A DNA stretch of 28,039 bases from the IMG/VR virus record IMGVR_UViG_3300020202_000193, positions 1 through 28,039 of that record. The stretch is one strand, 5' to 3'. Below, one piece after another: positions 1-27,633 of this stretch; the first letter of the stretch is position 1, and every line of letters begins with the position of its first letter. The notes under the pieces were generated by a model. That model was not told the DNA's origin. It ran no database searches and saw only the letters and a program-made list of their open reading frames with translations. This stretch comes from a virus. Made by a program: the position numbers and the translations under genes.

Positions 1-45
1 TTCGTCTTCGAAGACCAATTGACGGTAGGGGAGGGAGGGGGTAAA

Positions 46-345
46 GTGGTGGTGGCTCGTAGGAAGTCTTCGCGAGCCGAAGACGACGAACAGAGGGGAG
101 AGTGGGAGAAGTTGATCAGTCGGGAAGCGATCGAAGCCGCAGCCGCTGAGGCGACCAAGAGACATCGGCGCCAAACTGTCAACCGCGACAAGTGGATCAC
201 CATCCGCGTTACCGAGAACGAACGGGACATGGTGAAGTGGGTGGCCGGCGCCGGTCGCGGCCAGATCGCCGCCTTCGTCCGCGAAGCCGCACTCGACGTC
301 GCCCGCTTCCTCATCGAGGCCGAAGGGGAAGAACCAGGAGCATGA
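46..345 (+). CDS. Ribbon-helix-helix-like small DNA-binding protein
   Basis: About 99 residues. The N-terminal third is charged and probably disordered. It is followed by a pattern typical of ribbon-helix-helix or MobC-like proteins: a strand (DKWITIRVTENE), a helix (RDMVKWVAGAG), a turn, and a second helix (GQIAAFVREAALDVARFL). Such proteins bind DNA as dimers through the paired strands. The frame is open from a TTG at 19, but three GTG codons at 46, 49 and 52 lie just after the GGAGGG stretch at about 33-39. I chose GTG 46 because its spacing is best. The stop overlaps the next start (ATGA at 342-345), so the two genes are translationally coupled. A regulatory or DNA-organising role is inferred from the fold only. 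Confidence 0.72.
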   Translation: MVVARRKSSRAEDDEQRGEWEKLISREAIEAAAAEATKRHRRQTVNRDKWITIRVTENERDMVKWVAGAGRGQIAAFVREAALDVARFLIEAEGEEPGA

Positions 346-1090: not shown

Positions 1091-1455
1091 GCTGGAAAGA
1101 TATCTTCAGGCTTGGTCCCGGCCATCGCGGCAAGGCGGAAATCGTCCCCCAGCACACCTACCAGTGGCAGTTCGTGGAGCTGACCAACACCGGGCACAAC
1201 TCGTGGGTGATGAGCGTGTTCACCCGGCCAGGACGAGAGGGTGGTCACCTCGACATCGTGATCAAGGGGCCGGTACAGGACGCCATCGCCCGTGCTTCAG
1301 AGGCTAACGACGAGGCCGCCGAGAACTATCGACAGCAGCGACGCCGCAAGCGGATCCACGAGGAAGGCTCGACGAGCAAGCGCGGCGGCCACCGTCCCGG
1401 CCCGATGCGTGACTGCCCGATCTGCTCACCTCCCATCGGACGGATTCGGCGATGA
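1087..1455 (+). CDS. Small protein with C-terminal CxxC knuckle, paralogue 3
   Basis: 122 residues, beginning MSWKDIFRL like the other MSW-starting members of this row. A strand-rich first half (YQWQFVELTNTGHNSWVMSVFTR) is followed by an acidic helix and a strongly basic helix (NYRQQRRRKRIHEE). The C terminus is RPGPMRDCPICSPPI, the same closing motif as the preceding gene. Start and stop both sit in 4-nt overlaps (ATGA) with the neighbours, so the three paralogues and the next gene form one coupled translation unit. Function unknown. The conserved tail suggests a shared partner or a zinc-bridged oligomer, which is inference. Confidence 0.75.
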   Translation: MSWKDIFRLGPGHRGKAEIVPQHTYQWQFVELTNTGHNSWVMSVFTRPGREGGHLDIVIKGPVQDAIARASEANDEAAENYRQQRRRKRIHEEGSTSKRGGHRPGPMRDCPICSPPIGRIRR

Positions 1456-2276
1456 GTTGGCGACGCCTACGGGCCGGTGCCGGTTGGGTGATCGGCAAGG
1501 ATGTCTACGATCCGGACACCCACGAGTTGCTCGGCAAGCCGCAGCTGGCTACTCCACACCCGGACGGCGGGTGGGTGGTGATCATCATGCCGCCGGGCTC
1601 GACGGTGCCGGTCCATATCCGCCTCTATAACGTGTTGATCGAAGAGGACGAACTTCAGACTGGCGAGCCGGAGCCCAAGGTGGACGAGGACACTGTGCCG
1701 CTGCCCATCGTGGACGATGACGGCCACGGCTACCGCATCCGATCCAGCCATCGGCGCCAGCAACGCCAAGAGGAGGCAGAGCAGGCCGGTGCTGGATGGG
1801 TCGTACGCGAAGAAGGTGTCTCCGGTGATGAAGAGGCGCTCCCACCGGCGGACGCCGCTGATCCGGATCCCGACGACCGACCCGCTGGATCACATGTTGA
1901 CCCGACGGCCGAACTACACCCAAGGGGGAGACCCCTAGGGCGCAAGAAGCAAGACAGATACGAGGATGGCCCTGAACAGCAGGGCCATATGTCCAACACG
2001 ACAGGAGGAGCAACCATGGCAAGCGTTGCCGAAGTGAAGGCCGCAATCGACGGAGCGAACAACACGGCTGAGGAGGCGGCCGGCATCTTCCGAGCTGCAA
2101 TCGAGAAGCTCGGTGAAGCCCAGCAGCTGATGGCCCTCGCCACCGAGTCCAGCGGTCGCGACGAGGTCGCCGCCGCGAACAGCGCTCTGGCCCACGCCGC
2201 CGAACAGGGCGAAGAGGCCATCCGGGCGATCCAGAACGCCAAGGAACAGTCCGAGCAGTACGCCGCGAACCTGTAA
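1452..2276 (+). CDS. Long open frame: N-terminal domain, doubtful middle, helical-hairpin end
   Basis: The frame opens with an ATGA overlap at 1452 (MSWRRLRAGAGWVIGKD) and has no stop until 2276, which would give 274 residues. The first ~90 codons show the expected G/C-rich third positions and encode a strand-rich domain (GGWVVIIMPPGSTVPVHIRLYNV) and an acidic linker. From about 1740 the third-position bias weakens in this frame and becomes strong in the +1 frame up to a stop at 1938. The last 86 codons coincide with an independent gene at 2016 that has its own ribosome site. So either this is a real fusion protein, or the N-terminal gene is frameshifted near 1717-1760 and the continuity with the 2016 gene is chance. 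I favour the second reading. Confidence 0.45.
   Translation: MSWRRLRAGAGWVIGKDVYDPDTHELLGKPQLATPHPDGGWVVIIMPPGSTVPVHIRLYNVLIEEDELQTGEPEPKVDEDTVPLPIVDDDGHGYRIRSSHRRQQRQEEAEQAGAGWVVREEGVSGDEEALPPADAADPDPDDRPAGSHVDPTAELHPRGRPLGRKKQDRYEDGPEQQGHMSNTTGGATMASVAEVKAAIDGANNTAEEAAGIFRAAIEKLGEAQQLMALATESSGRDEVAAANSALAHAAEQGEEAIRAIQNAKEQSEQYAANL
1717..1938 (+). CDS. Possible +1-frame coding segment (C-terminal part of upstream gene or overlapping gene)
   Basis: 73 codons from an ATG at 1717 to TAG at 1938, in the +1 frame relative to the longer frame it overlaps. The third positions are very rich in G and C, much more so than the overlapping frame from about 1750 on, which is the signature of the translated frame in this genome. 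The product is basic in the middle (KKVSPVMKRRSHRR) and ends TRRPNYTQGGDP just before a hairpin. No clear ribosome site precedes 1717, so a frameshifted continuation of the 1452 gene is as likely as a separate gene. No family recognised. Confidence 0.42.
   Translation: MTATATASDPAIGASNAKRRQSRPVLDGSYAKKVSPVMKRRSHRRTPLIRIPTTDPLDHMLTRRPNYTQGGDP
1966..1988 (+). terminator. Perfect 9-bp hairpin before the helical-hairpin gene
   Basis: ATGGCCCTG at 1966-1974 and CAGGGCCAT at 1980-1988 are exact inverted repeats around an AACAG loop. No U-tract follows, so this is a weak terminator at best, or an mRNA-processing or stabilising hairpin. It lies between the stop at 1938 and the ribosome site at 2003-2009, which supports reading 2016 as a separate gene start. 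Confidence 0.5.
2016..2276 (+). CDS. YxxxL helical-hairpin protein 1
   Basis: 86 residues from ATG 2016, preceded by a strong AGGAGG at about 2003-2008. It is almost entirely helical: helix 1 covers about residues 1-45 (VAEVKAAIDGANNTAEEAAG and on), a polar turn follows near ESSGRD, and helix 2 runs from about 53 to the end. The C terminus is EQYAANL. Length and helix-turn-helix layout resemble WXG100/ESAT-6-type proteins, but the turn has no W-x-G and the tail is Y-x-x-x-L rather than the Y-x-x-x-D/E of type VII substrates. It shares size, layout and ending with the next two genes and with the gene at 20084-20353. Function unknown. Confidence 0.75.
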   Translation: MASVAEVKAAIDGANNTAEEAAGIFRAAIEKLGEAQQLMALATESSGRDEVAAANSALAHAAEQGEEAIRAIQNAKEQSEQYAANL

Positions 2277-2279
2277 TCC

Positions 2280-2537
2280 ATGTCCACCAGTGAACTCAGG
2301 GCCGCTGCACAAGAGCTGGCCACCAAGATCGACCGCGAGATGGCGATCATGTTGGCCGTTCGAGAGCGGCTATCGGAAGCGCACATTCAGTGCGCTCAAG
2401 TCTTCGAGGGCACCAGCCGCCAAGACATCATCGACGCTCTGACGGTGATCAGCGAGGTTTACACCGACGTGGAGGAAGGTGCCGGCAAGCTCGGCCTGGC
2501 CGCCCACGCCCTTCAGGCGTACGCCGAAGGTCTCTAA
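2280..2537 (+). CDS. YxxxL helical-hairpin protein 2
   Basis: 85 residues starting MSTSELRAAAQELATKI. Two long amphipathic helices are separated by a short polar turn (FEGTSRQD, about residues 42-49). The protein ends LQAYAEGL, matching the Tyr-hydrophobic-x-x-Leu ending of its neighbours. The ATG is only 3 nt after the previous stop and I see no Shine-Dalgarno sequence, so translation probably depends on coupling to the upstream gene. That would fix the amounts of the two products relative to each other, as is common for obligate partners (inference). Confidence 0.76.
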   Translation: MSTSELRAAAQELATKIDREMAIMLAVRERLSEAHIQCAQVFEGTSRQDIIDALTVISEVYTDVEEGAGKLGLAAHALQAYAEGL

Positions 2538-2560
2538 CTCACGCAGTACATGAGGGAGCT

Positions 2561-2821
2561 ATGACCACCACACAGCTGCTACGTGAGACTGTACTGGCCC
2601 ATCGATACGACCTCAGGCAATATCGGGAAGCGCTGTATCAGCAGCGAGCTTACGTTGAGGAACTTGCCGCCGGGATCGCAAACAATCTCGGCGACAGCTC
2701 CCAAGAGGCAATCTCAAGCATTCCTGGACAACTGGAAACACACGTCAAACTGTTGAGCGATCTGATTACCGGCACCAACAAGATCATGGGCGATCTTGGT
2801 GCCTACGTTCGCGCTCTGTGA
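2561..2821 (+). CDS. YxxxL helical-hairpin protein 3
   Basis: 86 residues from ATG 2561, preceded by GAGGGAG. The open frame reaches back to 2390, but that part overlaps the previous gene. Helix 1 (about 1-42) is Arg/Gln/Tyr-rich, the turn is NNLGDSSQ, helix 2 (about 50-86) is more hydrophobic, and the end is LGAYVRAL. It is the last plus-strand gene of the left module. The stop is 9 nt before a perfect hairpin that separates it from the convergent primase-helicase gene. Function unknown, same family as the two genes upstream. Confidence 0.77.
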   Translation: MTTTQLLRETVLAHRYDLRQYREALYQQRAYVEELAAGIANNLGDSSQEAISSIPGQLETHVKLLSDLITGTNKIMGDLGAYVRAL

Positions 2822-2830
2822 CGGGCTCTA

Positions 2831-2864
2831 TGGGGACCATGACCGCCCTAGGTTATGGTCCCCA
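2831..2864. terminator. Bidirectional hairpin between converging genes
   Basis: TGGGGACCAT at 2831-2840 and ATGGTCCCCA at 2855-2864 form a perfect 10-bp stem with a 14-nt loop. It follows the plus-strand stop by 9 nt and contains the TAG stop of the minus-strand primase-helicase gene (2848-2850) in its loop. No U-run is present on either side, so efficiency is uncertain, but position and symmetry fit a shared terminator. Confidence 0.62.
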
Positions 2865-5454
2865 GTAGTCCATTGGCTGGATTGACACTTAGGTCTAACC
2901 AGAAGAAATAGCTACCAATCTTTTCTTTCTTCAGCCCGATAGACATACATCGCTTATTGAAGCGTTTCTCGGTGAGCGAATACTTGACCTGATTGTTGGT
3001 GCACCAAGTCCGATACAGCTGGTAGAGCGTTTGCACACGGAGGCGCTCACCCTCCGTTCTTAGCAGGACGCCTTCAGCGAGACGCTCCTCCAGGAACTGG
3101 ACAACATCGTCCGACTCTCGTCGGTGGTTGATACTCCCTTGCTTGACCGCCTCAGGCTCATCCAGGCCCAGTGCGAGATACTCACGTACGCCCTCTAGTA
3201 GCCAATTGAGAATGCCGTCCGCTTCTTCCTCGGCGATCGTCACACCGATGTTGGGGACGTCATTCTCGGTGTTCACATACACCTGACTGAACTCGATCGG
3301 CTTGGTGCGTAACCAAATGGCGTTGTCATCCGAGTTGAGTCGAGGGAGGAAGTTCGTGGTGAGCCAGATCGCTCCCTCAGGAATCCAGCTCGTGTTCTTT
3401 TCGTAGAGGTCCCGACTGGTGATTCGGTCCCGACCCGTCAATCTCTTGATCAACTCTTCGTCAAGCTCCGACGTCTCCGATGTCTCCGACGAGCTGATTA
3501 GTCGCTTGCCCTTAAGGTCGTGAAGGTCGTTCGTTGCGCCACCTTCGCCACGCTTCTTACGGAACGTCGCCGCCGCCGCCGTGGTAGCGAAGTCACCGAA
3601 GACTGTCGCGAGAGCCTCGACGAACTGGCTCTTGCCCGTGCCCGATTCGCCATGAAGCAGAAAGATGGCACGGCGGTCGGCCTTGCCAAATAAGGTGTAT
3701 CCCATTGCCCGCTTGACGTATGCGCGGACATTCGGGTCAGGAAGGACCTCTTCGAGGAACTTGATCCAACGTGGACACTGGGCATCGGGATTGAAGTTGG
3801 CATTGAAAAGTCGTGTAAGCAGCCGCTTCGGGTCGTGCTTGGAGAATTCCATCGTGTTCAGGTCAATGACTCCATTGTGGACTGTTATGTACTGTCCACT
3901 TCGGTCAAAGTCCTGAGGCCGGGCCGACATGCCTGGCATGGGTGCGAGACGAGACACCGCGCCAAGGATGCGCTGGGTAGACCGTGAGGTCTTGATGTGC
4001 TTCTTGAAAGCCTTAACGGCTTCCTTCTTCTCTTCATCGTCGCCGGCCTCGCGGTCCATATCGGCCGCTTGGTCCATCATGATCTCGGTCGAGATCTGGG
4101 CAGCGTATTGGATACGGGAGTTTTCGTCTCGAATCCAGACCTTGCCATCCCAATGCATCCACTCGCCATACGACTTCACATAGCGGTAGTGGGCGCCGAA
4201 ATGGTCACGGATGCGTTCGGCATTCCCGATGTCATCGTGGGTGTAGTTGCGCCGAGGTGGCGGTTGTACCGGGTCCTCGTTACTGGAGGGGGGTGGCCCT
4301 GGCGCCTCGTAATCCTCACCCAGGATTCCCTTGATTACCTCACTGGCTCGTTCGAATCGCTCGCCGCCACTCAAAGCGGTCGCTGCTGCCCGGAAGTCCA
4401 GACCGTACCCGTTCAAGACGGACCAGGCGGCGAACTTCGAGTACGACGTGTCGGAGTTGAAGCCTTCACACTCGGTGGAGAACACCCACATCAGGTCCGA
4501 GCCGGCGTAGTTTGTCGTCACCGAATGGCCGTCGCGAGGGTCCTTGCCTGGCCGTACCCAGTACTCCTCGACGCCCCGCCGGTGGGACAGCCGGTAGCCG
4601 GCCGGCTCCAAGATCTCCGCCCAGCTCATCTTCGCCGCGAGGGCGTCGCCAGGCCGGTCCCCGACGGCTTGGCCACTAAGTGGCGGCCGAGTCTCCTGGG
4701 GGGGGAGAACGGGCTGAGGAGCCAGCTCGTCCATGATCTGCTTGGCGATGTCCGCCGAGGCAGCCAGCTCGTCTAGGCTCAGTCGCTCCCCGCTGCCCTC
4801 GCCATCCACGACGTAGCAGAGGCGGGGGTCACCGTCGACCTTCCGGTTGACCGTGCCGGGGATCCGCAGTACCCGAGACAGGTCGGGCAGGGGGCCGTAG
4901 TGGAAGCCGAGCCGTTCAGCTCCCGCCGCGATGGCGTCGTGCCACAGCCGGGACACCTCGTACGCGGTCGTCCGGCTGAACCGGTCATCAATCCGCCACG
5001 GCCGCTCCAGCAGCCACCACGGGTAGAAGCCGCCCCCCGACGACACCCAGAGGGTGGGGACGGGCAGACCGGACTCGTGCAAGATCTTTTTGCAGTCATC
5101 GAAGGTCTGGGGAAGCGGCTTGGTCGTCTTGTGGCCCGGACCGGCGACGTCCATGTCCGCCCATAGGCCGGGCAGGAAAAAGCTGTCCTCGTCGCCGCCA
5201 CGGCCCTCAACGGGCGGGTTCTTCAGCGTGGTCGCACGGGCGTAGATGCCTTTTGCGCCAGCAGCATCGAGGCTCTTGATGTAACTAGTGGCGTCAGTGT
5301 TCCAGGTCTTCGTACTTCCATCGAAGCTACGACCTGCCCAGCTGGAAGTGGACACAATGGACAGATAGCCATCCGTGCCCCCATACAGGGTATAAAGCCA
5401 GTCCTGGACACACTGAAGGTCAAGATTGTGGATGGCCGAGCCCTCAACTATCAT
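2848..5454 (-). CDS. Primase-polymerase / SF3 (D5-type) helicase fusion
   Basis: 868 residues, a replication initiator joining an archaeo-eukaryotic-type primase to a hexameric helicase. In the N-terminal part, LWADMDVAG (DxD at about 100-102) fits the metal site, and a Ser/Gly-rich loop (VSSGGGFYPWWLLE, about 137-150) and RVLRIPGTVNRK (194-205) fit the nucleotide site. A linker domain (about 275-400) follows. The C-terminal D5/P4-type helicase has Walker A GESGTGKS at 602-609, an acidic segment LKGKRLISSSETSE (647-660), the sensor-like IWLTTNFLPRL (696-706) and an Arg-finger candidate in AIWLRTKP. Start ATG 5454 has GGGGGA about 8 nt upstream. It would unwind and prime phage DNA, and no separate DNA polymerase is in the window. 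It stands alone at the end of the minus-strand module, behind a 254-nt leader. Confidence 0.93.
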   Translation of the reverse strand: MIVEGSAIHNLDLQCVQDWLYTLYGGTDGYLSIVSTSSWAGRSFDGSTKTWNTDATSYIKSLDAAGAKGIYARATTLKNPPVEGRGGDEDSFFLPGLWADMDVAGPGHKTTKPLPQTFDDCKKILHESGLPVPTLWVSSGGGFYPWWLLERPWRIDDRFSRTTAYEVSRLWHDAIAAGAERLGFHYGPLPDLSRVLRIPGTVNRKVDGDPRLCYVVDGEGSGERLSLDELAASADIAKQIMDELAPQPVLPPQETRPPLSGQAVGDRPGDALAAKMSWAEILEPAGYRLSHRRGVEEYWVRPGKDPRDGHSVTTNYAGSDLMWVFSTECEGFNSDTSYSKFAAWSVLNGYGLDFRAAATALSGGERFERASEVIKGILGEDYEAPGPPPSSNEDPVQPPPRRNYTHDDIGNAERIRDHFGAHYRYVKSYGEWMHWDGKVWIRDENSRIQYAAQISTEIMMDQAADMDREAGDDEEKKEAVKAFKKHIKTSRSTQRILGAVSRLAPMPGMSARPQDFDRSGQYITVHNGVIDLNTMEFSKHDPKRLLTRLFNANFNPDAQCPRWIKFLEEVLPDPNVRAYVKRAMGYTLFGKADRRAIFLLHGESGTGKSQFVEALATVFGDFATTAAAATFRKKRGEGGATNDLHDLKGKRLISSSETSETSELDEELIKRLTGRDRITSRDLYEKNTSWIPEGAIWLTTNFLPRLNSDDNAIWLRTKPIEFSQVYVNTENDVPNIGVTIAEEEADGILNWLLEGVREYLALGLDEPEAVKQGSINHRRESDDVVQFLEERLAEGVLLRTEGERLRVQTLYQLYRTWCTNNQVKYSLTEKRFNKRCMSIGLKKEKIGSYFFWLDLSVNPANGLLGTIT

Positions 5455-5468
5455 GCAGACATCCCCCA

Positions 5469-5486
5469 GAATTGCGCTAACAATTC
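5469..5486. promoter_or_regulatory. Inverted repeat in the leader of the primase-helicase gene
   Basis: GAATTG and CAATTC flank a 6-nt centre directly upstream of the ribosome site of the minus-strand primase-helicase gene. It is either an operator or an RNA hairpin that could limit translation. The choice cannot be made from sequence. Confidence 0.4.
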
Positions 5487-5509
5487 TCGGCGGGCTGGTA
5501 CCTCAGATC

Positions 5510-5540
5510 AGGCTCCCGAGGGGTGGGGGCCTTTTCTGTT
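5510..5540 (+). terminator. Plus-strand intrinsic terminator opposite the primase leader
   Basis: AGGCTCCC at 5510-5517 pairs with GGGGGCCT at 5525-5532 (one G-T wobble) around a 7-nt loop. The tail that follows is TTTCTGTT. This is a good rho-independent terminator in the plus direction, yet no plus-strand gene ends here. It could stop read-through or an antisense transcript entering from the primase gene. Confidence 0.5.
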
Positions 5541-5550
5541 GCCAGGCAAC
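5538..5550. promoter_or_regulatory. Operator-like dyad GTTGCC-A-GGCAAC
   Basis: A perfect 13-bp dyad with a single central base lies about 85 nt upstream of the primase-helicase start. Short perfect dyads of this kind are common repressor sites. The double helix-turn-helix protein encoded at 10249-10653 is a possible ligand, which is inference only. Confidence 0.4.
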
Positions 5551-5628
5551 CGATGTCCCCGGACTCTACATGATCCGGCGGGCGTTCGGGTACGGTGAGG
5601 GCAACCCCGCTACGGCTGTCGGGTGTTC

Positions 5629-5647
5629 GTATCCTCCCCGTGGATAC
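5629..5647. other. Small hairpin abutting the terminator
   Basis: GTATCC at 5629-5634 and GGATAC at 5642-5647 enclose the 7-nt loop TCCCCGT. The hairpin ends one base before the large stem at 5649-5696. I first considered a tRNA arm here, but the rest of the cloverleaf is missing. The role is unknown. Confidence 0.4.
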
Positions 5648-5648
5648 A

Positions 5649-5696
5649 ACAAGGCCCCCTAGCTGCGTTACTCACCCGCAGTCAAGGGGGCCTTGT
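5649..5696 (-). terminator. 12-bp stem terminator after the surface module
   Basis: ACAAGGCCCCCT at 5649-5660 and AGGGGGCCTTGT at 5685-5696 are perfect inverted repeats. The loop itself contains a nested stem (CTGCG at 5663-5667 with CGCAG at 5677-5681). It lies 12 nt past the minus-strand stop at 5709, so it most likely ends the transcript of the LPVTG and proline-tail genes before the primase leader. Confidence 0.6.
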
Positions 5697-5708
5697 CTAT
5701 GTCACAGT

Positions 5709-5927
5709 TCAGTAGTCCAGCGTGTCGCGAGGTGCTGGACGTCCAGGCGGTGGGGGCGGCGGCTTGGGCTTCATCATGTCCACGCCCATCTTGTGCTCGG
5801 CCAGCTTCAGGAACAGCTCACCGGCCCGGCTCCAAGCCGTCGCCATGTCCGTGCTGCCCCGGGTCGCCATGACCCTCGCCTCTCGGGCGCAATCAACGGC
5901 GGCCTCGTACAGCCGCTCGTACGTCAT
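5709..5927 (-). CDS. Small helical protein with proline-rich tail
   Basis: 72 residues: a helical N-terminal part (MTYERLYEAAVDCAREARVM, then a second helix AWSRAGELFLKLAEHKMG) and a proline-rich tail (MKPKPPPPPPGRPAP). No signal peptide, so it is probably cytoplasmic. It overlaps the end of the LPVTG gene by 4 nt (ATGA), so it is translated with it. The proline tail suggests protein binding. Function unknown, and the coupling implies a link with the surface protein (inference). Confidence 0.65.
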   Translation of the reverse strand: MTYERLYEAAVDCAREARVMATRGSTDMATAWSRAGELFLKLAEHKMGVDMMKPKPPPPPPGRPAPRDTLDY

Positions 5928-6700
5928 GCCTCGAACCGCTCACGGCGGCGACGCGCCACCAGCACGCCTGCCGCGCCGAGCACGACGAACACGGCGCCCA
6001 CAACGAAGGCCAGCCAGATTGGCGTGCCAGTCACCGGCAGGCCGCCACTGGACGAGGCGGGTGACGTCGACACCGAAGGCGCCGGAGCTGCGCTCGTCGT
6101 CGAGGCGGACGGGCTGGGCGACGGCGACGCCGAGGCGGAGACCGACGGGGACGGTGAAGGGGTACTGCACACGTCGGTGAACTTGACCGACTTGCCGCCC
6201 ACCTTCAGGTCAGTGAAGGTCACCTTGCCGGCGGCCGTGTTGCTGGCGTCGTACACCAGGCCCAGCGTGCCGACCTTCGTCACCCCGGTCAGGGTGAGCA
6301 CGCCGACGTCGCTCATGGCCGCGTCGGACGCCTTGGGTGCCGTGGTCAGGGTGTCCGCGTTCGCCTCTTCGTAGTAGAACAGGCGGACCGCTCCGGCGGC
6401 GTAATCGGCGTCCTCGTCGAGTGAGTAGAACACCGTGATCGTCACCGGCGAGTCGAAGGTGAGGCCGGCGTCGTAGGTGGCGAACTCGGTGCCACCGCCG
6501 GTCGGCTTGGTGAGCACCACCTTGCTCGCCGAGACCACCTTCGAGCCCTCGGCCGGCTCCTGCCAGGCGGTGACAATGGACCGCAGCTTCCAGTCCGGGC
6601 ATACCTTGTTCGGGGTTGGCGTGGCGCCACGTGCCGGCGCGCTACAGATGGTGGCGGTCAGCGCCAGCACGCCGACGAGCACCGCGAGGAGCTTTCTCAT
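5924..6700 (-). CDS. LPVTG-anchored secreted surface protein
   Basis: 258 residues from ATG 6700, which has GAAAGGA upstream. The longer open frame to 6730 lacks this and would spoil the signal peptide. Order: signal peptide (RKLLAVLVGVLALTATICSA), a strand-rich domain of about 160 residues with one Cys near each end (VCPDW and TDVCST, possibly a disulfide), a Ser/Pro/Ala-rich wall-spanning linker, LPVTG at 221-225, a hydrophobic helix and a basic tail RRRRERFEA. This is the classic sortase anchoring layout, so the host should own a sortase and the protein would be displayed on the infected cell or lysogen. The upstream stop codon is 26 nt away. Ligand or activity unknown; superinfection exclusion or lysogenic conversion are possibilities. 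Confidence 0.85.
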   Translation of the reverse strand: MRKLLAVLVGVLALTATICSAPARGATPTPNKVCPDWKLRSIVTAWQEPAEGSKVVSASKVVLTKPTGGGTEFATYDAGLTFDSPVTITVFYSLDEDADYAAGAVRLFYYEEANADTLTTAPKASDAAMSDVGVLTLTGVTKVGTLGLVYDASNTAAGKVTFTDLKVGGKSVKFTDVCSTPSPSPSVSASASPSPSPSASTTSAAPAPSVSTSPASSSGGLPVTGTPIWLAFVVGAVFVVLGAAGVLVARRRRERFEA

Positions 6701-6726
6701 AGAGATCCTTTCCGTGGATATGGACA

Positions 6727-7332
6727 TCACCAGGCGGCTGCCTGGGACGCTTCGGCCGACGTCAGGTAGGGCTCGTCAGGCCTCTTGGGGGGACACTGCC
6801 AGAAGTTGACGTCCATGGCGGACAGGCAGTGTGTGGTGTTGGTAGGCAAGCCGATGAACCGGCCTACCCAGTAGGACAGCATCATGCCGCGCTGCCAGGG
6901 GGTGTAGTTGCCCCAGCCGTCCCGGAACAACGGGCCGTCCCGGTTGATGGTGATCAATGCCTTGCGGGGACCGAAGGAGCGCAGGGTGGCGTCCGGGCCG
7001 GTCAACCCCAGAGAGCCCATCCGCAGCACCAGGCAGTTGTTCATGTCGGGGCAGGTGATGTGGGCGCAGTTGCCGTCGTTGTCGGCCGCACAGAGGATGT
7101 CTGTGCTGGTGTACGCGTTCCAGAGGTTGATGGCGTACACGGCCGCCCCGGCGGCCTCCGGTGTCGCGTCGATGACCACCGGCGGCGGGGTTAGCGACCG
7201 GTAGTACTTGGTGGTGATCGTCGGTCCAGGCCTCGGCTTGGCGTCGGCTGCGGTGGCCAATCCGGCGACGGCCACAGCAGTGGCGGCCACGCCAAGAGTG
7301 ATGAGAAGCGTGACGGCTTTCCTGATCTTCAC
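6727..7332 (-). CDS. Secreted matrixin-like protein lacking the zinc site
   Basis: 201 residues from GTG 7332 with AAAGGAG upstream. It has a signal peptide of about 30 residues (KIRKAVTLLITLGVAATAVA...). The mature part follows the layout of actinobacterial matrixin-like metallopeptidases: VVIDATPEAAGAAVYAINLWN, a Cys-rich central sheet, RKALITIN, WQRG, then the active-site helix and a CLSAMD Met-turn. In place of HExGHxxGLPH the sequence reads YWVGRFIGLPT (residues 154-164), so all three zinc His and the catalytic Glu are replaced by Y, R, T and W while the scaffold residues remain. It is therefore probably an inactive, binding-only relative. It sits directly upstream of the LPVTG gene on the same strand. 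Confidence 0.78.
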   Translation of the reverse strand: MKIRKAVTLLITLGVAATAVAVAGLATAADAKPRPGPTITTKYYRSLTPPPVVIDATPEAAGAAVYAINLWNAYTSTDILCAADNDGNCAHITCPDMNNCLVLRMGSLGLTGPDATLRSFGPRKALITINRDGPLFRDGWGNYTPWQRGMMLSYWVGRFIGLPTNTTHCLSAMDVNFWQCPPKRPDEPYLTSAEASQAAAW

Positions 7333-11177: not shown

Positions 11178-11193
11178 TATGATCACTTTATGA
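11178..11193 (+). promoter_or_regulatory. TATGAT -10 box and MITL leader mini-ORF before terminase
   Basis: TATGAT at 11178-11183 ends 6 nt before the terminase ATG, the same geometry as on the other strand, so a leaderless transcript is possible. No good -35 is seen. The same bases hold a second option: ATG 11179, placed 6 nt after GGAGGGGG, starts a four-codon frame (M-I-T-L) whose TGA overlaps the terminase ATG (ATGA at 11190-11193), allowing coupled initiation from a longer transcript. Confidence 0.45.
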
Positions 11194-12641
11194 GTCTTTC
11201 ACTGGCACAGAGGGTGGCATGCCTCCCTCCGGACCAGCGTCGCGAATGGCTCATGCGCCAAGAAAAGGACATCCTGGACGAGATCGTCCGGGGAGAGTGG
11301 TGGTGGACCGCCCGCCCCGAGCAGATCCCCCCACCCGGCGACTGGCTCGTACACCTCGTTCTATCCGGGCGTGGCTGGGGGAAGTCCCGAGCCGGCGCGG
11401 AGTGGATCGTCGACCGCACACTCAAGTACCCCCGCGACCGGTCTGGTGCGCCCACCGAACGCTTGGTCATCGGCGAAACCCTCTCCGACGCCAGGTCCAT
11501 CTGCGTCGAAGGGCCGTCCGGCATCCTCCGCGTCCTCGATCGGCGAGGCATCAAGTACAAGTACATCCGCAACCCCAAGCCGAAGATCGTCATCGCTCCG
11601 GGCAGTCTCGACGCCGTCATCTACTTCGGCGGGGCCGACAGCCCCGACGTCGGCCGTGGCTACAACGCCGCCGACGCGTGGCTCGACGAGATCGCCAAGT
11701 GGCAGTATCCGAAAGCGTCGTGGGTGGAAGGCATCATGCCGTCCCTACGTGCCGACCTCATCGGCGATCATCCGCGTGCCTTCGTCACCACCACGCCCAA
11801 GCCGATCGACTTGCTCATGGAGTGGCTGGAACGCCGCGATGGGTCCGTCTCCATCGTGCGGGGCAGCACGTTCGACAACGCCGCCAACCTGTCCTCGCAT
11901 GTGCTTCAGGAGCTGAAGCTACGGTACGAAGGCACCTCCATCGGTCGTCAGGAACTCTACGGGGAGATGCTCGAAGCTCTCGATGGCGTCCTCTTCAAAT
12001 GGGCGGACATCGAAGGTAACCGTGTAAAGATCGGCCCCGAAGTCGTAACTCACCGAACGGTGGGCGTGGACCCCACGCTCAGCTCCGGCGACGAGGAAAA
12101 CAGCAGTCGCTGGGCCACAGACGAAATGGGCGTCGTAGTCGCGTCCCGGGACCACCGGGACCACGTCTATATCGTGGCCGATGAGTCGACGAGGCTCGTC
12201 GGTCGAGAAGCCGCCCTCCATGCTTGGGCTGTCTTTGACCGGTACCAGTGCGATTCGCTCGTCTACGAGGACAACCTCGGTAAGGCTTGGATGCGGCAGG
12301 TCTTCACCGATGCCTACCGTGAACTGCAAAAGCGCGGAGTCTTCCCGGCCGGCAACCACAAGCCACCTATGGCAGAAATCCATGCGAACCAGGGTAAGCA
12401 GCTACGTGCTGAGCCGGTTGGTAACCGATACGAGCAGGGTCGGGTGCACCATATCGGCAAGTTCGAGAAGCTCGAAGCCCAGATGATCCAGTGGGATCCG
12501 GTCAATTCGAAGGAGTCGCCGGACCGTCTGGACGCCATGGTCCATGCCGTTCGACACCTCATGGATGGGGAAAAGCGAGCCGCTCGAATCCTCTCCGCCC
12601 GCAAGGTTTGGCTGCCGACTGCCGGAAACGGCGCTTACTAG
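11190..12641 (+). CDS. terL: Terminase large subunit
   Basis: 483 residues. The packaging motor and head-filling nuclease. ATPase half: Walker A SGRGWGKS (59-66), Walker B AWLDEI (163-168) with the catalytic Glu, and coupling motif TTTPKP (200-205). Nuclease half: the RNase H-like first acidic strand VGVDP (Asp294), the second acidic site VYEDN (Glu360/Asp361) and a late acidic segment SPDRLDAM (Asp445, Asp448). The length is normal for the family. It opens the plus-strand late module. No terminase small subunit is recognisable next to it. The DUF1360-like gene, portal and MuF genes follow in the usual order. Start ATG 11190 lacks a well-placed ribosome site (see the control region just upstream). 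Confidence 0.95.
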   Translation: MSLSLAQRVACLPPDQRREWLMRQEKDILDEIVRGEWWWTARPEQIPPPGDWLVHLVLSGRGWGKSRAGAEWIVDRTLKYPRDRSGAPTERLVIGETLSDARSICVEGPSGILRVLDRRGIKYKYIRNPKPKIVIAPGSLDAVIYFGGADSPDVGRGYNAADAWLDEIAKWQYPKASWVEGIMPSLRADLIGDHPRAFVTTTPKPIDLLMEWLERRDGSVSIVRGSTFDNAANLSSHVLQELKLRYEGTSIGRQELYGEMLEALDGVLFKWADIEGNRVKIGPEVVTHRTVGVDPTLSSGDEENSSRWATDEMGVVVASRDHRDHVYIVADESTRLVGREAALHAWAVFDRYQCDSLVYEDNLGKAWMRQVFTDAYRELQKRGVFPAGNHKPPMAEIHANQGKQLRAEPVGNRYEQGRVHHIGKFEKLEAQMIQWDPVNSKESPDRLDAMVHAVRHLMDGEKRAARILSARKVWLPTAGNGAY

Positions 12642-12981: not shown

Positions 12982-14883
12982 ATGGCCTTCCGTAGGACGA
13001 AAGAGTTGGCGGTCATCCCCGAGGTGGCCAACTCCCTTATCGCCTCTGCCGCTCAGGTAAAGCTCAACGATTCTTCCTGGCGGTACTACCGACTACGGGA
13101 CGAGACGTGGCAGATCGAGGCCTGGCGGCTCTACGACTGCATCGGTGAACTCCACTTCGCGGCCGGCTGGGTCGGCTCCGCCTGCTCACGAGTGCGGATC
13201 TACGTCGCTGAAGTCGACGAACTTGGCCGCGTCGGTGGTGAAGTCGAAGACGACGATGAAATCGAAGCCATCTCGGACACCTTGTTCGGTGGGCCGGCCA
13301 GCAAGGCGGAAGCTCTCCGGGCCATCGGTATCGCCCTCACCGTGGCCGGCGAGTGCTACCTGATCGGTCTGGCCAAGAACACCGAGGCCAACCAGGGCAG
13401 CCGCGACAAGTGGCTCGTCGTCGCCCCATCTGAGCTGAAGCGCGTCGGCGACCGTCTTCAGCTGAAGAGGGGTCGGGCTGACTGGCTGGACATCAATCCA
13501 GGCCGTGACATCGTCATCCGGTTGTGGACGCCGCACCCCCGCATGATGGACCTGGCTGACAGTCCTACTCGGGCCGCGACGCCCATCCTCCTGGAGCTGG
13601 AGCGGCTCACCCGGTACGTGTTCAGTCAGATCGACTCCCGGCTGATCGGTGCTGGCATCCTGCCGATCCCGGCCGGCCTGCGGTTCCCGCGTGCTGATGG
13701 CACTACGGGTGACGCCGGTGACCTAATGGTGGAGCTGGCTGAGGCCGCCAAGGCATCCCTGTCCGGTGAGGGCTCGGCGGCCGGCGTGGTGCCGATCCTG
13801 GTGGAGATGCCAGCTGAAGACCTGGCGAATATGCCGGACAAGCCGATTACGTTCGAGTCGGTGATGTCCGAGCACGCACGGGAGCTTCGCGATGAAGCCA
13901 TTCGGCGTCTGGCTCTGGCAATGGACATGCCGCCGGAGGTGCTCTCCGGCACCGGTGAGACCAACCACTTCAATGCTTGGCATGTGGAAGAGTCGGCGGT
14001 CAAGATCCACATCGAACCGTTGATGACCCGGATCTGTGACGGCCTCACCGACGCCTACCTGAAGCCGGCCCTGAAGGCCCTCGACAAGGATCCCGACCGG
14101 TACTGCCTCTGGTTCGACACCGCACCCCTGACTGTCCGGCCGAACCGGCTCCAAGACACCCTTAACCTCTTCGAGCGAGGCATCGTCTCCGCCGAGGCGG
14201 TACGTCGCGCCGGTGACTACAAAGAGTCGATCGACGCCCCCTCACAAGAGGAAGAGAACACCCGGTTCATCAAGGAATTGCTCCTGCGTGACCCGACGCT
14301 GTTCCAAAACGTCGCCATCCGGGAAGCCATCGGCATCGAGATCGAAGAAGTCGACCCGCTCGCGTTGCCGCCGGGTGCTGAAGGTGACCCCAACGCCCCG
14401 GGGCCAGCCCCTCCACCGGCCCCAGAGCGTGCTGTCGATAGTAGCGAGCCTGGTCAGAATTCCCCTGACCTTCCGCGTAATACCCGTCCCCAACGGCAGG
14501 GCGGTACGTCCAATGGACTGATCGCCGGCCTGGAGTACGTCGAGGCGCCGTCGGCCGAGTTGGTCCTTGCCGATGCGGTAGTTCGCCGCGCTCTCCAGGT
14601 GGCCGGGGCTCGGCTGCTAACTCGTGCCCACGTCGAGCAATGGAAGCACGTACCCAAGCACGAACTCCACACCAAGATCAAGGTCAAGGACTACGAACAC
14701 TCCGAGAAGCTGCTCCTCGGCGCCTGGGACGAACTGCCATCCCTTGCCGAGGGGCTTCGCTTCCATGCGCAGCCGAAGATTGAAACAGTCCTCGACAACT
14801 ACTGCACCACCTTGCTGTTGCGTTCTCTGCCGCACTCCCGAGAGTTCCTCAAGGCCTACCTATGTGAGGTGGGCGCCCTGTGA
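12982..14883 (+). CDS. Portal protein
   Basis: 633 residues. Forms the dodecameric ring at the capsid vertex through which DNA enters. Assigned from its place between terminase and the MuF-like gene, its length, and actinophage portal features: the N-terminal SSWRYYRLRDETWQIEAWRL, the acidic insertion after AEVDELGRVGGEV, the conserved centre (VMSEHARELRDEAIRRLALA then MPPEVLSGTGETNHFNAW), and the stem/clip segment EPLMTRICDGLTDAYLKPAL. The last ~170 residues hold a Pro-rich linker (PGAEGDPNAPGPAPPPAP) and an extra helical domain (about residues 515-633). ATG 12982 has GGACGAG upstream. Its stop overlaps the next start. Confidence 0.92.
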   Translation: MAFRRTKELAVIPEVANSLIASAAQVKLNDSSWRYYRLRDETWQIEAWRLYDCIGELHFAAGWVGSACSRVRIYVAEVDELGRVGGEVEDDDEIEAISDTLFGGPASKAEALRAIGIALTVAGECYLIGLAKNTEANQGSRDKWLVVAPSELKRVGDRLQLKRGRADWLDINPGRDIVIRLWTPHPRMMDLADSPTRAATPILLELERLTRYVFSQIDSRLIGAGILPIPAGLRFPRADGTTGDAGDLMVELAEAAKASLSGEGSAAGVVPILVEMPAEDLANMPDKPITFESVMSEHARELRDEAIRRLALAMDMPPEVLSGTGETNHFNAWHVEESAVKIHIEPLMTRICDGLTDAYLKPALKALDKDPDRYCLWFDTAPLTVRPNRLQDTLNLFERGIVSAEAVRRAGDYKESIDAPSQEEENTRFIKELLLRDPTLFQNVAIREAIGIEIEEVDPLALPPGAEGDPNAPGPAPPPAPERAVDSSEPGQNSPDLPRNTRPQRQGGTSNGLIAGLEYVEAPSAELVLADAVVRRALQVAGARLLTRAHVEQWKHVPKHELHTKIKVKDYEHSEKLLLGAWDELPSLAEGLRFHAQPKIETVLDNYCTTLLLRSLPHSREFLKAYLCEVGAL

Positions 14884-15608
14884 CGATGCGCCAGGAACAG
14901 AGGCTATTCACCCAGGTCATCCGAATCCTTGGTGAATTCCTCCAACGCGTCATCGATGCGGTCCTGGGCGCCTACCGACGATTCAGATTGTCTCCAGATC
15001 CGGCAGGGGTCTATGAAGTCGCGCCGTGGTGGAATGGTCAGGTCGATCGCCTGGTTAGCGACGATCTTGAGCAGATTTCCGAAGAGGGTTGGCAAGAAGT
15101 CGTTGAACGGCTCGGTCTGGATGTCCCGTTCATATCGACCGACTCGTTCATCCAGGCACAACTTGCCCTCACGCAGAACCTTCTAGTCCGGATCCCGGAC
15201 GAGGTCTACCACCTCATCTTCGCCGAGATTAACGACGGTGTGAATGACGGCGACGATCCTGACCAGCTCGCCGCCCGCATCGAGGCGGTGTTGTCGATGA
15301 CCAACTCAGAAAGGTGGCCCGAACGTGCCCGGACCATTGCCGTCACGGAAGCGAACCGAGCGAACAACGCTGGGGCGTACGCAGCCGGCCTCCAGTCCGA
15401 GTCAATGGCTGGGATTGGACTACGAAAGCGATGGCTCGCTACGAATGACCAGCGAACCCGACCAGACCACCGACACGCAGACGGACAACTGCAACCCCTC
15501 CGACAGCCATTCAATGTAGGGGGTTGGCCCCTACAATTCCCTGGAGACCCAACCGGGCCTCCCGAGCAGGTCATCTGGTGTAGGTGTGCATTGGTGGTGA
15601 CGGACTGA
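14880..15608 (+). CDS. MuF-like minor head (head morphogenesis) protein
   Basis: 242 residues from GTG 14880, which overlaps the portal stop (GTGA) and has GAGGTGG upstream; ATG 14886 is an alternative. The C-terminal half shows the SPP1 gp7/Mu F signature: RARTIAVTEANRANNAGAYA, KRWLATNDQRTRPDHRHADG, then FPGDPTGPPEQVIWCRCALV, including the typical R..H...G and CRC ending. The N-terminal half is helical. Such proteins bind the portal and enter the head, some being ejected with the DNA. Gene order (portal, MuF, protease) is canonical. Confidence 0.9.
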   Translation: MTMRQEQRLFTQVIRILGEFLQRVIDAVLGAYRRFRLSPDPAGVYEVAPWWNGQVDRLVSDDLEQISEEGWQEVVERLGLDVPFISTDSFIQAQLALTQNLLVRIPDEVYHLIFAEINDGVNDGDDPDQLAARIEAVLSMTNSERWPERARTIAVTEANRANNAGAYAAGLQSESMAGIGLRKRWLATNDQRTRPDHRHADGQLQPLRQPFNVGGWPLQFPGDPTGPPEQVIWCRCALVVTD

Positions 15609-19335: not shown

Positions 19336-19371
19336 CGGCAGGGATACGTTGGAATGACACACCCCACGCCG

Positions 19372-19444
19372 TGGCGGAGACCGGACTTGAACCGGTGACC
19401 TCGGGGTTATGAGCCCCGCGCGCTACCGACTGCGCCACTCCGCT
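19372..19444 (-). tRNA. tRNA with anticodon CAT (Met, initiator-like features)
   Basis: A complete 73-nt cloverleaf. Acceptor AGCGGAG pairs with CTCCGCC except for A1-C72. D stem GCGC/GCGC, anticodon stem CGGGG/CCCCG with loop CTCATAA, variable region AGGTC, T stem ACCGG/CCGGT with loop TTCAAGT, discriminator A73. CCA is not encoded, so host CCA addition is needed. The three stacked G-C pairs (G29-G31 with C39-C41) and the unpaired 1-72 position are hallmarks of bacterial initiator tRNA, but the D stem has C11-G24 as in elongators. A lysidine-modified Ile tRNA also uses CAT and cannot be excluded. Confidence 0.93.
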
Positions 19445-19572: not shown

Positions 19573-19739
19573 TTCGACGGTTTCCCGTTGATCACCTCGT
19601 CCGGGATCTCGATCTGGAAGTCGGAGACCGGTCGGGGCTGCTTGGGAACGTAGACGTTCACCAGGACGCCTCCGTAATCCTTGGCTGTGTACAGGTTGCT
19701 GTTTCGAGTGTTGCGCTCGTACACCAGCTTGACCCTCAT
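19569..19739 (-). CDS. Small strand-rich protein, 56 residues
   Basis: MRVKLVYERNTRNSNLYTAK, then DYGGVLVNVYVPKQPRPVSD, FQIEIPDEVINGKPSK. Alternating hydrophobic residues indicate a small beta sheet. The start overlaps the upstream stop (ATGA at 19736-19739) and the end overlaps the membrane-peptide start, so all three genes are coupled. No family recognised. Confidence 0.68.
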   Translation of the reverse strand: MRVKLVYERNTRNSNLYTAKDYGGVLVNVYVPKQPRPVSDFQIEIPDEVINGKPSK

Positions 19740-20011
19740 CTGCCTGTCACCTCCCCTCGGATGATCTGTACGGCGATTTGACGCATCTCCAAAGGGGTTC
19801 GGGCTTTGAACAGCACCTTGGAGTTTTCTGGCGTGAGATCGGGCAAGGTGATCGAAGCCAGCGTCTCGTCATGAAATGTCAGGTGGGCCTTGATTCTGCC
19901 GAAATAGACCCGGTTGGGGGCGCACAGATCAACTGTGGCCACCCCCTCCTTCTCCAGGGTGACGTGCTGGTGGGTCATGTTGTGCCAGATGGCCTGAACC
20001 CTCCTGAGCAC
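19736..20011 (-). CDS. Small protein, 91 residues, function unknown
   Basis: Starts at GTG 20011, 6 nt after GAGAGGGGG. An internal ATG at 19978 (MTHQHVTLEKEG) is an alternative. Strand-rich middle (EGVATVDLCAPNRVYFGRIKAH... ASITLPDL) followed by a helix (TPLEMRQIAVQIIRGEVTGR). It lies directly behind a consensus-type promoter at 20049-20077, so it leads its own transcript together with the two small genes and probably the tRNA. Confidence 0.68.
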   Translation of the reverse strand: MLRRVQAIWHNMTHQHVTLEKEGVATVDLCAPNRVYFGRIKAHLTFHDETLASITLPDLTPENSKVLFKARTPLEMRQIAVQIIRGEVTGR

Positions 20012-20083: not shown

Positions 20084-20353
20084 CTACAGCTCCCTGAGGT
20101 ACACCGTTGCCTCGTCGCGGAAGGCGTTCAGGCCCTGGTAGACCTCCTCGATGCCGTGCTTGATCGTCTCCAGTCCGGCAGACATCGCCGCCGGATAGGT
20201 GCTCGAACTGGCCGCGAAGACGAGCTGGTGCAACGGCGTGATCTGGTCCAAGGTCTGGCTGATCTCTGCTGCCCAGGCCTCGATCTTCTCGATGTAGTCC
20301 AACTCGACGTTGATGCTGTCCCGTAGTCCTTGGACGCTTGCATCGTCAGACAT
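20084..20353 (-). CDS. YxxxL helical-hairpin protein 4
   Basis: 89 residues from ATG 20353, with GGAGGGAGAGGG upstream. Helix 1 (about 1-47: VQGLRDSINVELDYIEKIEA and on), turn ASSSTYPA, helix 2 to the end (LETIKHGIEEVYQGLNAFRD), terminating TVYLREL. Length, hairpin layout and the final Tyr-hydrophobic-x-x-Leu match the three genes at 2016-2821, which lie about 18 kb away on the other strand. No W-x-G in the turn. It is the first gene of the inverted cassette, facing away from the capsid gene. Function unknown. Confidence 0.74.
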   Translation of the reverse strand: MSDDASVQGLRDSINVELDYIEKIEAWAAEISQTLDQITPLHQLVFAASSSTYPAAMSAGLETIKHGIEEVYQGLNAFRDEATVYLREL

Positions 20354-20524: not shown

Positions 20525-22189
20525 ATGTTCACCATTCCCGAAGACCTCACCGTCTTCTCGGTGCCGGGCCTGGAGGATCTGCGCCGGGTGGCTCAGGACG
20601 AGCTGACCGCGCTGCGAGCCTCCATCACCGACCCGGAGACCGTCACCGACGAGCAGCTTGAGCGCGGCGAGGCCCTGTTCAGCTTCATCACGAACGCCGA
20701 CGCCGAGATCGAGAAGCGCCGCGAGCGTTCGGCCCGCTTTGAGGCCCTCGCCCCCTCGACTTCCGAGGTGACACCGGTCGTCGAGGAGCCCGTCGTCGAG
20801 GCCACCATCGAGACCCAGCCGGCAACGACCAGCACCACCGCTACCTCGACCGCCGTCGCGGTCAAGCAGGTGGACATCGCTGCCGTCGCACCACACACCA
20901 CGACGACTGCCACCCTTGAGGTAGAGCAGGCCCCCGAGCGGCCGTTCGGTGAGCACCGCATCGTAGTCGGCGCCGACGTCCCGGAGATCCCGACCGGCAC
21001 CGAGCTGAACTCGTGGACCCAGGTCGCCGAGGCATTCGTCCAGAAGACCCGCGCGTACGGCGGCAAGTCGAACATCGGTCGGCAGTCCGTCGCCACGATC
21101 TACCGCGAGTACGAGGACCCGCAGCTGGTCATCAACCAGACCGACGGCGACGAGCTGGTTCACACCAAGCTCCAATGGGCGGCCAATGAGTCCCGCCTGC
21201 CGGGTAACTCCCTCGTCGCGGCCAACGGCTGGTGTGCCCCGTCGGAGACGCTGTACAACACCTGCGTGCAGGTCACCACGGACGGCCTCGTCAACCTCCC
21301 CGAGGTGGTCGCCCGGCGCGGTGGCATCCGGCACAACCAGGGCATCGAGTTCGACGCCATCTTCGGCACCGGCACCGGCTTCAACATCCTCACCGAGGCC
21401 CAGGTCATCGCCGACACCGCCAAGACCTGCGTCGAGATCCCCTGCCCGCCGTTCGTGGACGACCGCCTGAAGGTCGCGGTCCTCTGCCTCACCGGCGCCA
21501 TCCTCCAGAACCGGGCCTACCCGGAGTTCGTCGCCGACTTCGTTCGGGGCGCCATCGCCACCCAGGCGCACAACGTCAACCGTCAGATCATCGCGGACAT
21601 CGTGGCCGGCTCCGGTGCGGCCATCGACCTGTCGCCGCTGGCGAGCCCGACCGACAACACCGCCGGCTCTGGCTTCCTGGCCGCGCTGGAGATCGCCGCC
21701 CTGGACATCCGGTACCGGTTGCGCCTGGCCACCGGCGCTTCCCTGGAGGCGATCTTCCCGCTCTGGGCCAAGGCTCAGGTTCGGGCGGACCTGTCCCGCC
21801 GCACCGGCGTCGCCGAGATGGCCGTCTCCGACGAGATGATCACCTCCTGGATGGCCATGCGCGGTATCCGTGCCCAGTGGGTTTACGACTTCCGGGACGC
21901 CTTCTCGGCGGCCGGTGTTGGCCCCGGTGCGGACACCCCGATCACCGCCCTGGCCAACGAGGTCACCGTGCCGATCTTCCCCGCCGGCACGTGGGTTCTC
22001 GCTCGCCAGGACGTCATCCGCATCGACTCCCTGTACGACTCGGTCCTGCTCCCCCAGAACCTGGTCACCCAGCTGTTCATGGAGGACGGGTTCGCGGTCA
22101 TGCGGATGTGCCCGCTGTCCCGCCTCTACACCCTGCCGCTCTGCCCGTCGGGTGAGACCAGCTCGACCGCTGCCCGCACCTGCGCCTAA
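20525..22189 (+). CDS. Major capsid protein with N-terminal scaffold-like region
   Basis: 554 residues from ATG 20525 with GGAAGG 6 nt upstream. Residues 1-75 form charged helices (LEDLRRVAQDELTALRASIT, IEKRRERSARFEALAP). Residues 76-145 are a Thr/Val/Ala-rich linker. The capsid domain follows, with actinophage major-capsid landmarks: WTQVAEAFVQKTRAYGGKSN, NSLVAANGWCAPSETLYNTC, LVNLPEVVARRGGIRHNQG and the C-terminal PQNLVTQLFMEDGFAVMRMC. The extended N terminus resembles a fused delta/scaffold domain that the upstream protease could remove, which is inference. The gene lies beyond an inverted cassette instead of directly after the protease block, which is unusual. A hairpin follows the stop. 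Confidence 0.9.
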   Translation: MFTIPEDLTVFSVPGLEDLRRVAQDELTALRASITDPETVTDEQLERGEALFSFITNADAEIEKRRERSARFEALAPSTSEVTPVVEEPVVEATIETQPATTSTTATSTAVAVKQVDIAAVAPHTTTTATLEVEQAPERPFGEHRIVVGADVPEIPTGTELNSWTQVAEAFVQKTRAYGGKSNIGRQSVATIYREYEDPQLVINQTDGDELVHTKLQWAANESRLPGNSLVAANGWCAPSETLYNTCVQVTTDGLVNLPEVVARRGGIRHNQGIEFDAIFGTGTGFNILTEAQVIADTAKTCVEIPCPPFVDDRLKVAVLCLTGAILQNRAYPEFVADFVRGAIATQAHNVNRQIIADIVAGSGAAIDLSPLASPTDNTAGSGFLAALEIAALDIRYRLRLATGASLEAIFPLWAKAQVRADLSRRTGVAEMAVSDEMITSWMAMRGIRAQWVYDFRDAFSAAGVGPGADTPITALANEVTVPIFPAGTWVLARQDVIRIDSLYDSVLLPQNLVTQLFMEDGFAVMRMCPLSRLYTLPLCPSGETSSTAARTCA

Positions 22190-27411: not shown

Positions 27412-27420
27412 GAGGTGGAT

Positions 27421-27633
27421 ATGAGCGAGCCGCGTTGGCGCTACCGAACCAATAGGGCATTCGGCGTCATGGATCAGGACGAGGAGCTGACCTTCGAGAA
27501 CGACGACGATCCGGTCATGATCTCCCTCGTCGGGGCGGGATACATCGACTTGGTGTCTGGGCCGCCGTTGGAGGGTATCCAGTCGGGAGAATCCTTTGGT
27601 ACCCCCAGCATCGTTATGGAGCCCCCAAAATGA
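27421..27633 (+). CDS. Small protein with one fibre-type repeat at its end
   Basis: 70 residues from ATG 27421, 4 nt after GGAGGT; GTG 27415 is a weaker alternative. The N-terminal part (RYRTNRAFGVMDQDEELTFE, then DDPVMISLVGAGYIDLVSG) resembles short neck or adaptor peptides. It ends LEGIQSGESFGTPSIV, a clear copy of the GIASGEAFGTPTIT unit found ten times in the fibre gene 1.5 kb upstream. It may supply the docking strand for the fibre. The stop overlaps the next start. Confidence 0.68.
   Translation: MSEPRWRYRTNRAFGVMDQDEELTFENDDDPVMISLVGAGYIDLVSGPPLEGIQSGESFGTPSIVMEPPK

Follow-up and report, generated by a model that had tools for sequence, protein, structure and literature searches.

The window, by which we mean the whole stretch of viral DNA analysed here, is a virus contig of 28,039 bases and represents an incomplete fragment of a tailed phage, identified as such by its terminase, portal, Mu F-like, head-maturation protease and head proteins. 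Four small genes of this fragment, here called A to D, code for putative helical hairpins. They had been picked out in an earlier note on the same DNA, and their positions (2016, 2280 and 2561 on the plus strand, 20084-20353 on the minus strand) and lengths of 85-89 residues are all confirmed. A, B and C form a tandem on the plus strand, and D is placed between a protease-like gene and the major head gene, which starts at 20525. The main features are:

2016-2276, plus strand: hairpin A, 86 residues, ending YAANL, closest to host hairpin 1 (H1, see below)
2280-2537, plus strand: hairpin B, 85 residues, ending YAEGL
2561-2821, plus strand: hairpin C, 86 residues, ending YVRAL
2848-5454, minus strand: primase/helicase (PHROG 1156, E 1.4e-101), convergent with A-B-C
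11190-12641, plus strand: terminase large subunit, with tblastn matches to 363 phage records and IMG/VR relatives at 52%
12982-14883, plus strand: portal protein (PHROG 776, E 3.6e-155)
19736-20011, minus strand: 91-residue open reading frame 3' of D and on the same strand, without a family match
20084-20353, minus strand: hairpin D, 89 residues, ending YLREL, in opposite orientation to the head genes that flank it
20525-22189, plus strand: major head protein (PHROG 777, E 4e-126), the phage context of D

The reading frame of A is open upstream, and the mechanically called frame begins at 1452; we place the start of A at 2016 because of a strong Shine-Dalgarno sequence (AGGAGGAG) and because its relatives start at the same residue. 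B looks translationally coupled to A, and the ribosome sites of C and D are good. The 91-residue frame is possibly the second gene of the D transcript, judging from its spacing. A tRNA-Met gene (CAT; 19371-19444, minus strand) is found near D, between the protease-like and the head genes. Upstream of A, the products of two small plus-strand genes at 644-1090 and 1087-1455 have a common tail, PGPM-x-x-CPIC, and may be zinc-binding paralogues; MSW begins the product of the gene at 1452 as well as that of the gene at 1087. At 19-345 (plus strand) there is a weak match to NikA-like mobilization proteins (E 8e-4, under the Pfam cut-off).

For A, AlphaFold2 predicts two long helices (residues 4-42 and 49-85) joined by a short turn, with pLDDT 93.9, and for D two helices (3-46 and 53-88) and a similarly short turn, with pLDDT 91.2, so that the fold suggested earlier from the letters, two helices and a turn, is borne out for these two proteins. 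Foldseek searches with both models gave no significant matches, as expected for a generic hairpin shape: EsxA:EsxB ranked third for A (TM 0.79 by query, E 1.3, not significant), and the small matches include CFP10-ESAT6 and EsxGH for A and EsxEF for D. In a viral structure library, the three best matches of A all came from siphovirus ctMAv2 and were all non-significant (E 0.08-0.39); two are small proteins, and the third is a papain-like toxin matched at its N-terminus.

The closest relatives of A are bacterial. It shares 41-51% identity over 86/86 residues with chromosomal proteins of Actinoplanes and other Micromonosporaceae, and a scan of GTDB species genomes with A retrieved 30 full-length relatives of 41-50% identity, nearly all from Actinoplanes and allied Micromonosporaceae (genus names beyond the titled loci are inferred). 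Against a profile built without it, A scores 67.6 bits. A broader family HMM was made from host sequences only, leaving B outside the training set; B scores 32.4 bits with this model, and C 16.3 bits over positions 3-86, each of them above all 500 ordinary and all 500 heptad-preserving shuffles. In its open frame, C has an E of 0.029 among the 9141 ORFs of the fetched DNA. D scores 8.2 bits, a value matched by 1 of 500 ordinary and 0 of 500 heptad-preserving shuffles; model positions 3-86 fall on its residues 6-89 with Tyr and Leu in register. Its E among the same 9141 ORFs is 2.7, which is not significant, so that D is placed in the family by its size, predicted fold, register and tail. In pairwise global comparisons, z was 5.4 for A-B, 3.8 for A-D, 3.5 for C-D and 2.0 for B-C, and similarity was undetectable for A-C and B-D. 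Judged by sequence, A and B are securely members of one family, C is a probable member, and D a plausible one of weak kinship; of the four-member family of the earlier note, then, the part made of A and B holds, with C probable and D statistically unproven. At least two of the four hairpins appear as copies from a poorly known bacterial family, and the host of the phage may, judging by A alone, be Actinoplanes-like.

All four proteins end exactly in Y-x-x-x-L. This ending is seen in 5 of 424 background host genes without a family match (1.2%) and in none of the 68 small ones, as compared with 34 of 44 small family members; the tail common to A-D is not a product of chance, and the shared C-terminal Tyr and Leu of the earlier note are real. 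A slightly relaxed form, [YF]-x-x-x-[LIVM], lies close to the C-terminus in 56 of 59 relatives, and the host relatives of A end in YTANL, YTATL, YTAML or similar. Conservation of the Tyr and Leu was likewise examined in the homologues, most of which keep both; among the exceptions is a second phage copy with I-x-x-x-L (see below). Phage A retains 13 of 16 host-conserved positions within its first 15 and last 6 residues, and only 18 of 39 outside them. Such end-biased conservation points to that end of the hairpin at which the N- and C-termini come together, and is the pattern that would be expected if this end were a binding surface.

In the host genomes, members of the family mostly come as tandem hairpin pairs (H1 and H2) adjoining a gene for a soluble ATPase of the FtsK/SpoIIIE type. 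Such an ATPase is linked to hairpins in 32 of 38 fetched neighbourhoods; the 32 cases are only partly independent, many being from related genera. In type I operons it directly follows the hairpins; in type II operons, which consist of ATPase, membrane or coiled-coil protein, and hairpin, it precedes them. At one type I locus (L010), a relative of A is followed by a 295-residue protein that begins with a second hairpin, then by an 875-residue FtsK/SpoIIIE protein (Pfam E 2e-21), then by a small protein with three membrane-like segments; nearly all other loci of the Actinoplanes group have a second gene of the same kind, most with a readable ATPase start behind it. The best PDB relatives of the ATPase are EccC (4nh0, E 3e-24), EccC5 (E 4e-16) and YukB (E 3e-15), with FtsK (E 3.5e-6) far behind all three, and its Actinoplanes form has no predicted membrane helix. 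The order ATPase, intervening protein, hairpin also occurs in another group of the class (L157-L174), where the hairpins end in YRDSL, YRDTL or YSDGL. Profile comparisons of H1 with H2, with toxin N-termini (see below) and with the type II hairpins gave probabilities of 91-98%, against at most 1% in reversed controls. The search for linked partner genes that the earlier note had called for thus led to an EccC-like ATPase beside paired hairpins.

Neighbourhoods without the ATPase comprise two toxin fusions (L099 and L105), a lone hairpin (L100), two hairpin clusters (L101 and L104), a chance match (L106) and a short contig (L175). In each cluster (L101 6481-7709, L104 5409-7112) there are two or three hairpin genes, and the DNA fetched around them shows no ATPase; one of the hairpins carries a C-terminal extension, and L104 has an HTH-type gene nearby. 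The second operon type, with ATPase, membrane protein and hairpin, was noted in L102, L103, L111, L116 and L118; it adjoins folE and ftsH in Actinoplanes relatives, and in L111, L116 and L118 a DUF6244 protein takes the place of the hairpin. Of 200 genomes from across the order, 52 contain a match to the profile, a few of these being partial chance matches; L051, L052 and L106 were excluded, their matches being partial and located in frames that are unrelated or very long. In the genus Actinoplanes, all 31 genomes searched have hairpin matches, 26 of them three or more, as one would expect of core genes of the host. The idea of a sporadic defence island was given up for this genus, since 31 of 31 genomes carry the module; PADLOC gave only generic ATPase matches on it. 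We found no paper in the open-access literature that describes this hairpin domain or its ATPase.

The same hairpin also occurs at the N-termini of DddA-like (SCP1.201 / BaDTF1) deaminase toxins of actinobacteria, where it often ends in R-x-Y-L-x-x-[LI]-G and where profile probability is 97.5% against both H1 and H2. DddA serves Burkholderia as a toxin against other bacteria, with type VI secretion as its route of delivery; the SCP1.201-like subfamily of DddA also includes proteins of actinobacteria (PMC7901873). In the toxins a linker and a toxin domain follow the hairpin, whereas the phage copies stop at the Leu. The clearest example, a 274-residue protein of L099, starts with a hairpin that ends in YVASI and continues through a linker rich in Pro and Gly into a DddA-like domain (Pfam E 1.4e-17); the stretch at 1269-6883 of this locus, in which the toxin adjoins a TrwC relaxase, is probably a mobile element carrying a hairpin-tagged toxin. 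Among 30 DddA-like loci in the order, one is L099 and 15 more match a profile of stand-alone hairpins at the N-terminus (E<=0.01), which makes about half of the toxins sampled; in L126, L132, L134 and L137 stand-alone hairpin-like ORFs lie just upstream of DddA genes. The proposal of the earlier note that the fixed tail speaks for a secretion or toxin-type system is thus strengthened, relatives of A-D being found beside an EccC-like ATPase or as N-termini of DddA-like toxins.

A further relative may be DUF6244 (PF19757), a Pfam family of unknown function and of the same length as the hairpins, whose members adjoin the type II ATPase operon or DddA-like and immunity-like genes, as in L110, where a DUF6244 hairpin is next to one of each. 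Host H1 matches its model weakly over the full length (15.7 bits, cut-off 31.6), as do 13 of 16 members of the A/H1 alignment (best E 0.0085), and the Pfam search gave no match of A-D to it. The DUF6244 members examined end in ...KVQALGN or similar and do not have the Y-x-x-x-L tail.

A second phage contig (L149, 8.3 kb) has a lone 86-residue hairpin, encoded on the opposite strand between the portal and terminase genes, which ends in ...EEINGRL, with Ile in place of Tyr; its presence on a different phage contig speaks for two or more acquisitions. No hairpin was seen in the DNA searched of phages with related terminases (L002-L008), and IMG/VR scans with A, B, C, D and an alignment designated A2 found no relatives. 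With an alignment of A-D alone (A1), a match arose in a 786-residue frame of another phage, and was set aside as a likely coiled-coil coincidence. Searches by tblastn found nothing with A, B and D in INPHARED phages, with A in PLSDB, with one host hairpin in phages or with the L099 toxin in plasmids; in Pfam, NCBIfam, PHROGs and PADLOC, A-D have only sub-threshold matches of coiled-coil type. The window contains no match to the ATPase, which some host family members also lack as a neighbour, and no recognised toxin in its 28 kb. A toxin borne by the MuF-like protein (14880-15608) was considered and rejected, as this protein ends at its MuF domain and leaves no room for a toxin domain.

From the linkage of genes we infer a function for the hairpins, as follows. 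H1 and H2 would pair into four-helix bundles; the ATPase or its partner would recognise, among other features, the conserved Y-x-x-x-[LIV] tail with which helix 2 ends; and the EccC-like ATPase would move hairpin-tagged cargo. With neither a motor nor a recognised cargo in the 28 kb of phage DNA, the phage copies most likely act in trans. By pairing with hairpins of the host, or by occupying the ATPase, they may block or redirect the host complex during infection or lysogeny. That A-D are decoys or competitors of the host ATPase/hairpin complex in this sense has, in our judgement, an even chance of being correct. The conservation of the operon may also reflect a role other than export, such as DNA or envelope work.

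How far this system can be equated with that of WXG100/ESX proteins deserves comment. Both have helical hairpins of about 85-100 residues, tandem gene pairs, a linked FtsK/SpoIIIE ATPase (EccC/EssC/YukB) and toxins with the same hairpin at the N-terminus. They differ in that the present family has no W-x-G and has Y-x-x-x-[LIV] instead of Y-x-x-x-D/E, which in type VII substrates is part of the pattern HxxxD/ExxhxxxH (PMC3935865), and in that the Actinoplanes ATPase has no predicted membrane helix, the partner gene with three membrane segments being present only in some operons. An architecture like that of WXG100 is therefore supported, and the likeness drawn in the earlier note stands as to size, fold, missing W-x-G and Leu in place of the acid; it does not extend to WXG100 membership, which the sequences do not support. 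Were A-D canonical WXG100 substrates that had lost their motifs, the similar size, hairpin and tandem pairing beside an EccC-like ATPase would be accounted for, as would the place of EsxA:EsxB among the top Foldseek matches and a profile match of H1 to host WXG100 proteins (33%, reversed control 1.7%), which is suggestive only. Yet W-x-G is absent from A-D and from all 59 family members, and Y-x-x-x-[DE] from the last 20 residues of all 59; a host relative reaches 16.5 bits with the Pfam WXG100 model (PF06013), under its cut-off of 27.3, and A-D have no match to it at E<=1; and the same host genomes carry separate canonical WXG100 genes, while the WXG100 model, run on these genomes, does not find the hairpin loci. 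We consider such an origin of A-D very unlikely; distant common descent of the two families is possible. It is hardly credible that A-D are unrelated generic hairpins whose tails are alike by chance: the weak statistics of D, and to a lesser degree of C, would agree with this, but the full-length identity of A to ATPase-linked genes, the scores of B and C above all shuffles and the rarity of the tail in background genes speak against it, and for A and B it is already refuted.

There remain two explanations that take the kinship of the hairpins with host proteins as given. A-D may be cargo of lysogenic conversion, that is, export partners or chaperones for a toxin elsewhere on the phage that would use the host ATPase. 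There is a precedent in prophages of Mycobacterium abscessus, where ESAT-6-like WXG100 proteins are thought to serve polymorphic toxins (PMC8092301); those cassettes resemble the present case as hairpin partners borne by temperate phages, with a proposed use of FtsK/SpoIIIE-type secretion of the host. The stand-alone hairpin-like ORFs upstream of DddA genes, the DUF6244 hairpin of L110 with its DddA-like and immunity-like neighbours and, non-significantly, the ctMAv2 structure matches with a papain-like toxin N-terminus among them would fit as well. However, the M. abscessus cassettes have true WXG100 proteins adjacent to a toxin and an immunity gene, and neither gene is recognised in the window, be it beside A-C or beside D, or next to the hairpin of L149. 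We regard this cargo role as rather unlikely, though it is the main rival of the decoy reading. Less probable still, and in our opinion improbable, is service to the phage itself, in virion assembly, DNA packaging or replication, the host likeness being a matter of ancestry only. A-D do sit among replication and head genes, and small all-helical proteins are common in phage assembly; but phages with related terminases have no hairpins in the DNA searched, the head genes are oriented opposite to D and to the L149 copy, and the nearest relatives are chromosomal and ATPase-linked, with no PHROG match.

Action as decoys is favoured over that as cargo because a toxin adjoins the hairpins in neither phage fragment and is adjacent to them in the M. 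abscessus precedent. The preference is a modest one, as both fragments are incomplete and a toxin or ATPase may lie outside them, and the direction of the effect, interference or help, is read solely from the absence of recognised cargo in these two fragments. As a broader and tentative proposal, which is possible though doubtful in its entirety, Actinobacteria might have a second, minimal export system made of non-WXG hairpin pairs with a Y-x-x-x-L tail and a soluble EccC-like ATPase, related to ESX and distinct from it. This system would belong to the core genes of Actinoplanes and serve toxins of the DddA type in other groups, and the phage hairpin mimics would capture or block it. If so, the phage genes would represent a counter-measure against a secretion motor, or its theft, and a new phage route onto such a motor in the host; alternatively, they would be partners that a phage supplies for type VII-like export by its host, the second such case besides that of the M. 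abscessus prophages. In either case, a hairpin family of unknown function is now linked to an EccC-like motor and to DNA-deaminase toxins, which offers a testable answer to the question of how actinobacterial DddA-like toxins might be exported, and at least two different phages carry copies of parts of this host machinery.

Other genes of the window deserve a brief mention. Two overlapping minus-strand genes, at 5924-6730 and 6727-7332, code for probable secreted proteins. The C-terminal part of the former's product reads LPVTG, followed by a hydrophobic stretch and RRRRERFEA, as in cell-wall proteins anchored by sortase; this is unusual for a phage and makes the gene a candidate for lysogenic conversion; the latter has no PHROG match. 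Amid presumed head-tail genes, a plus-strand gene at 24713-26146 codes for a protein with repeats of about 18 residues (APTGIASGEAFGTPTITPG), and a 72-residue protein encoded at 27415-27633 (plus strand) has one unit similar to this repeat.
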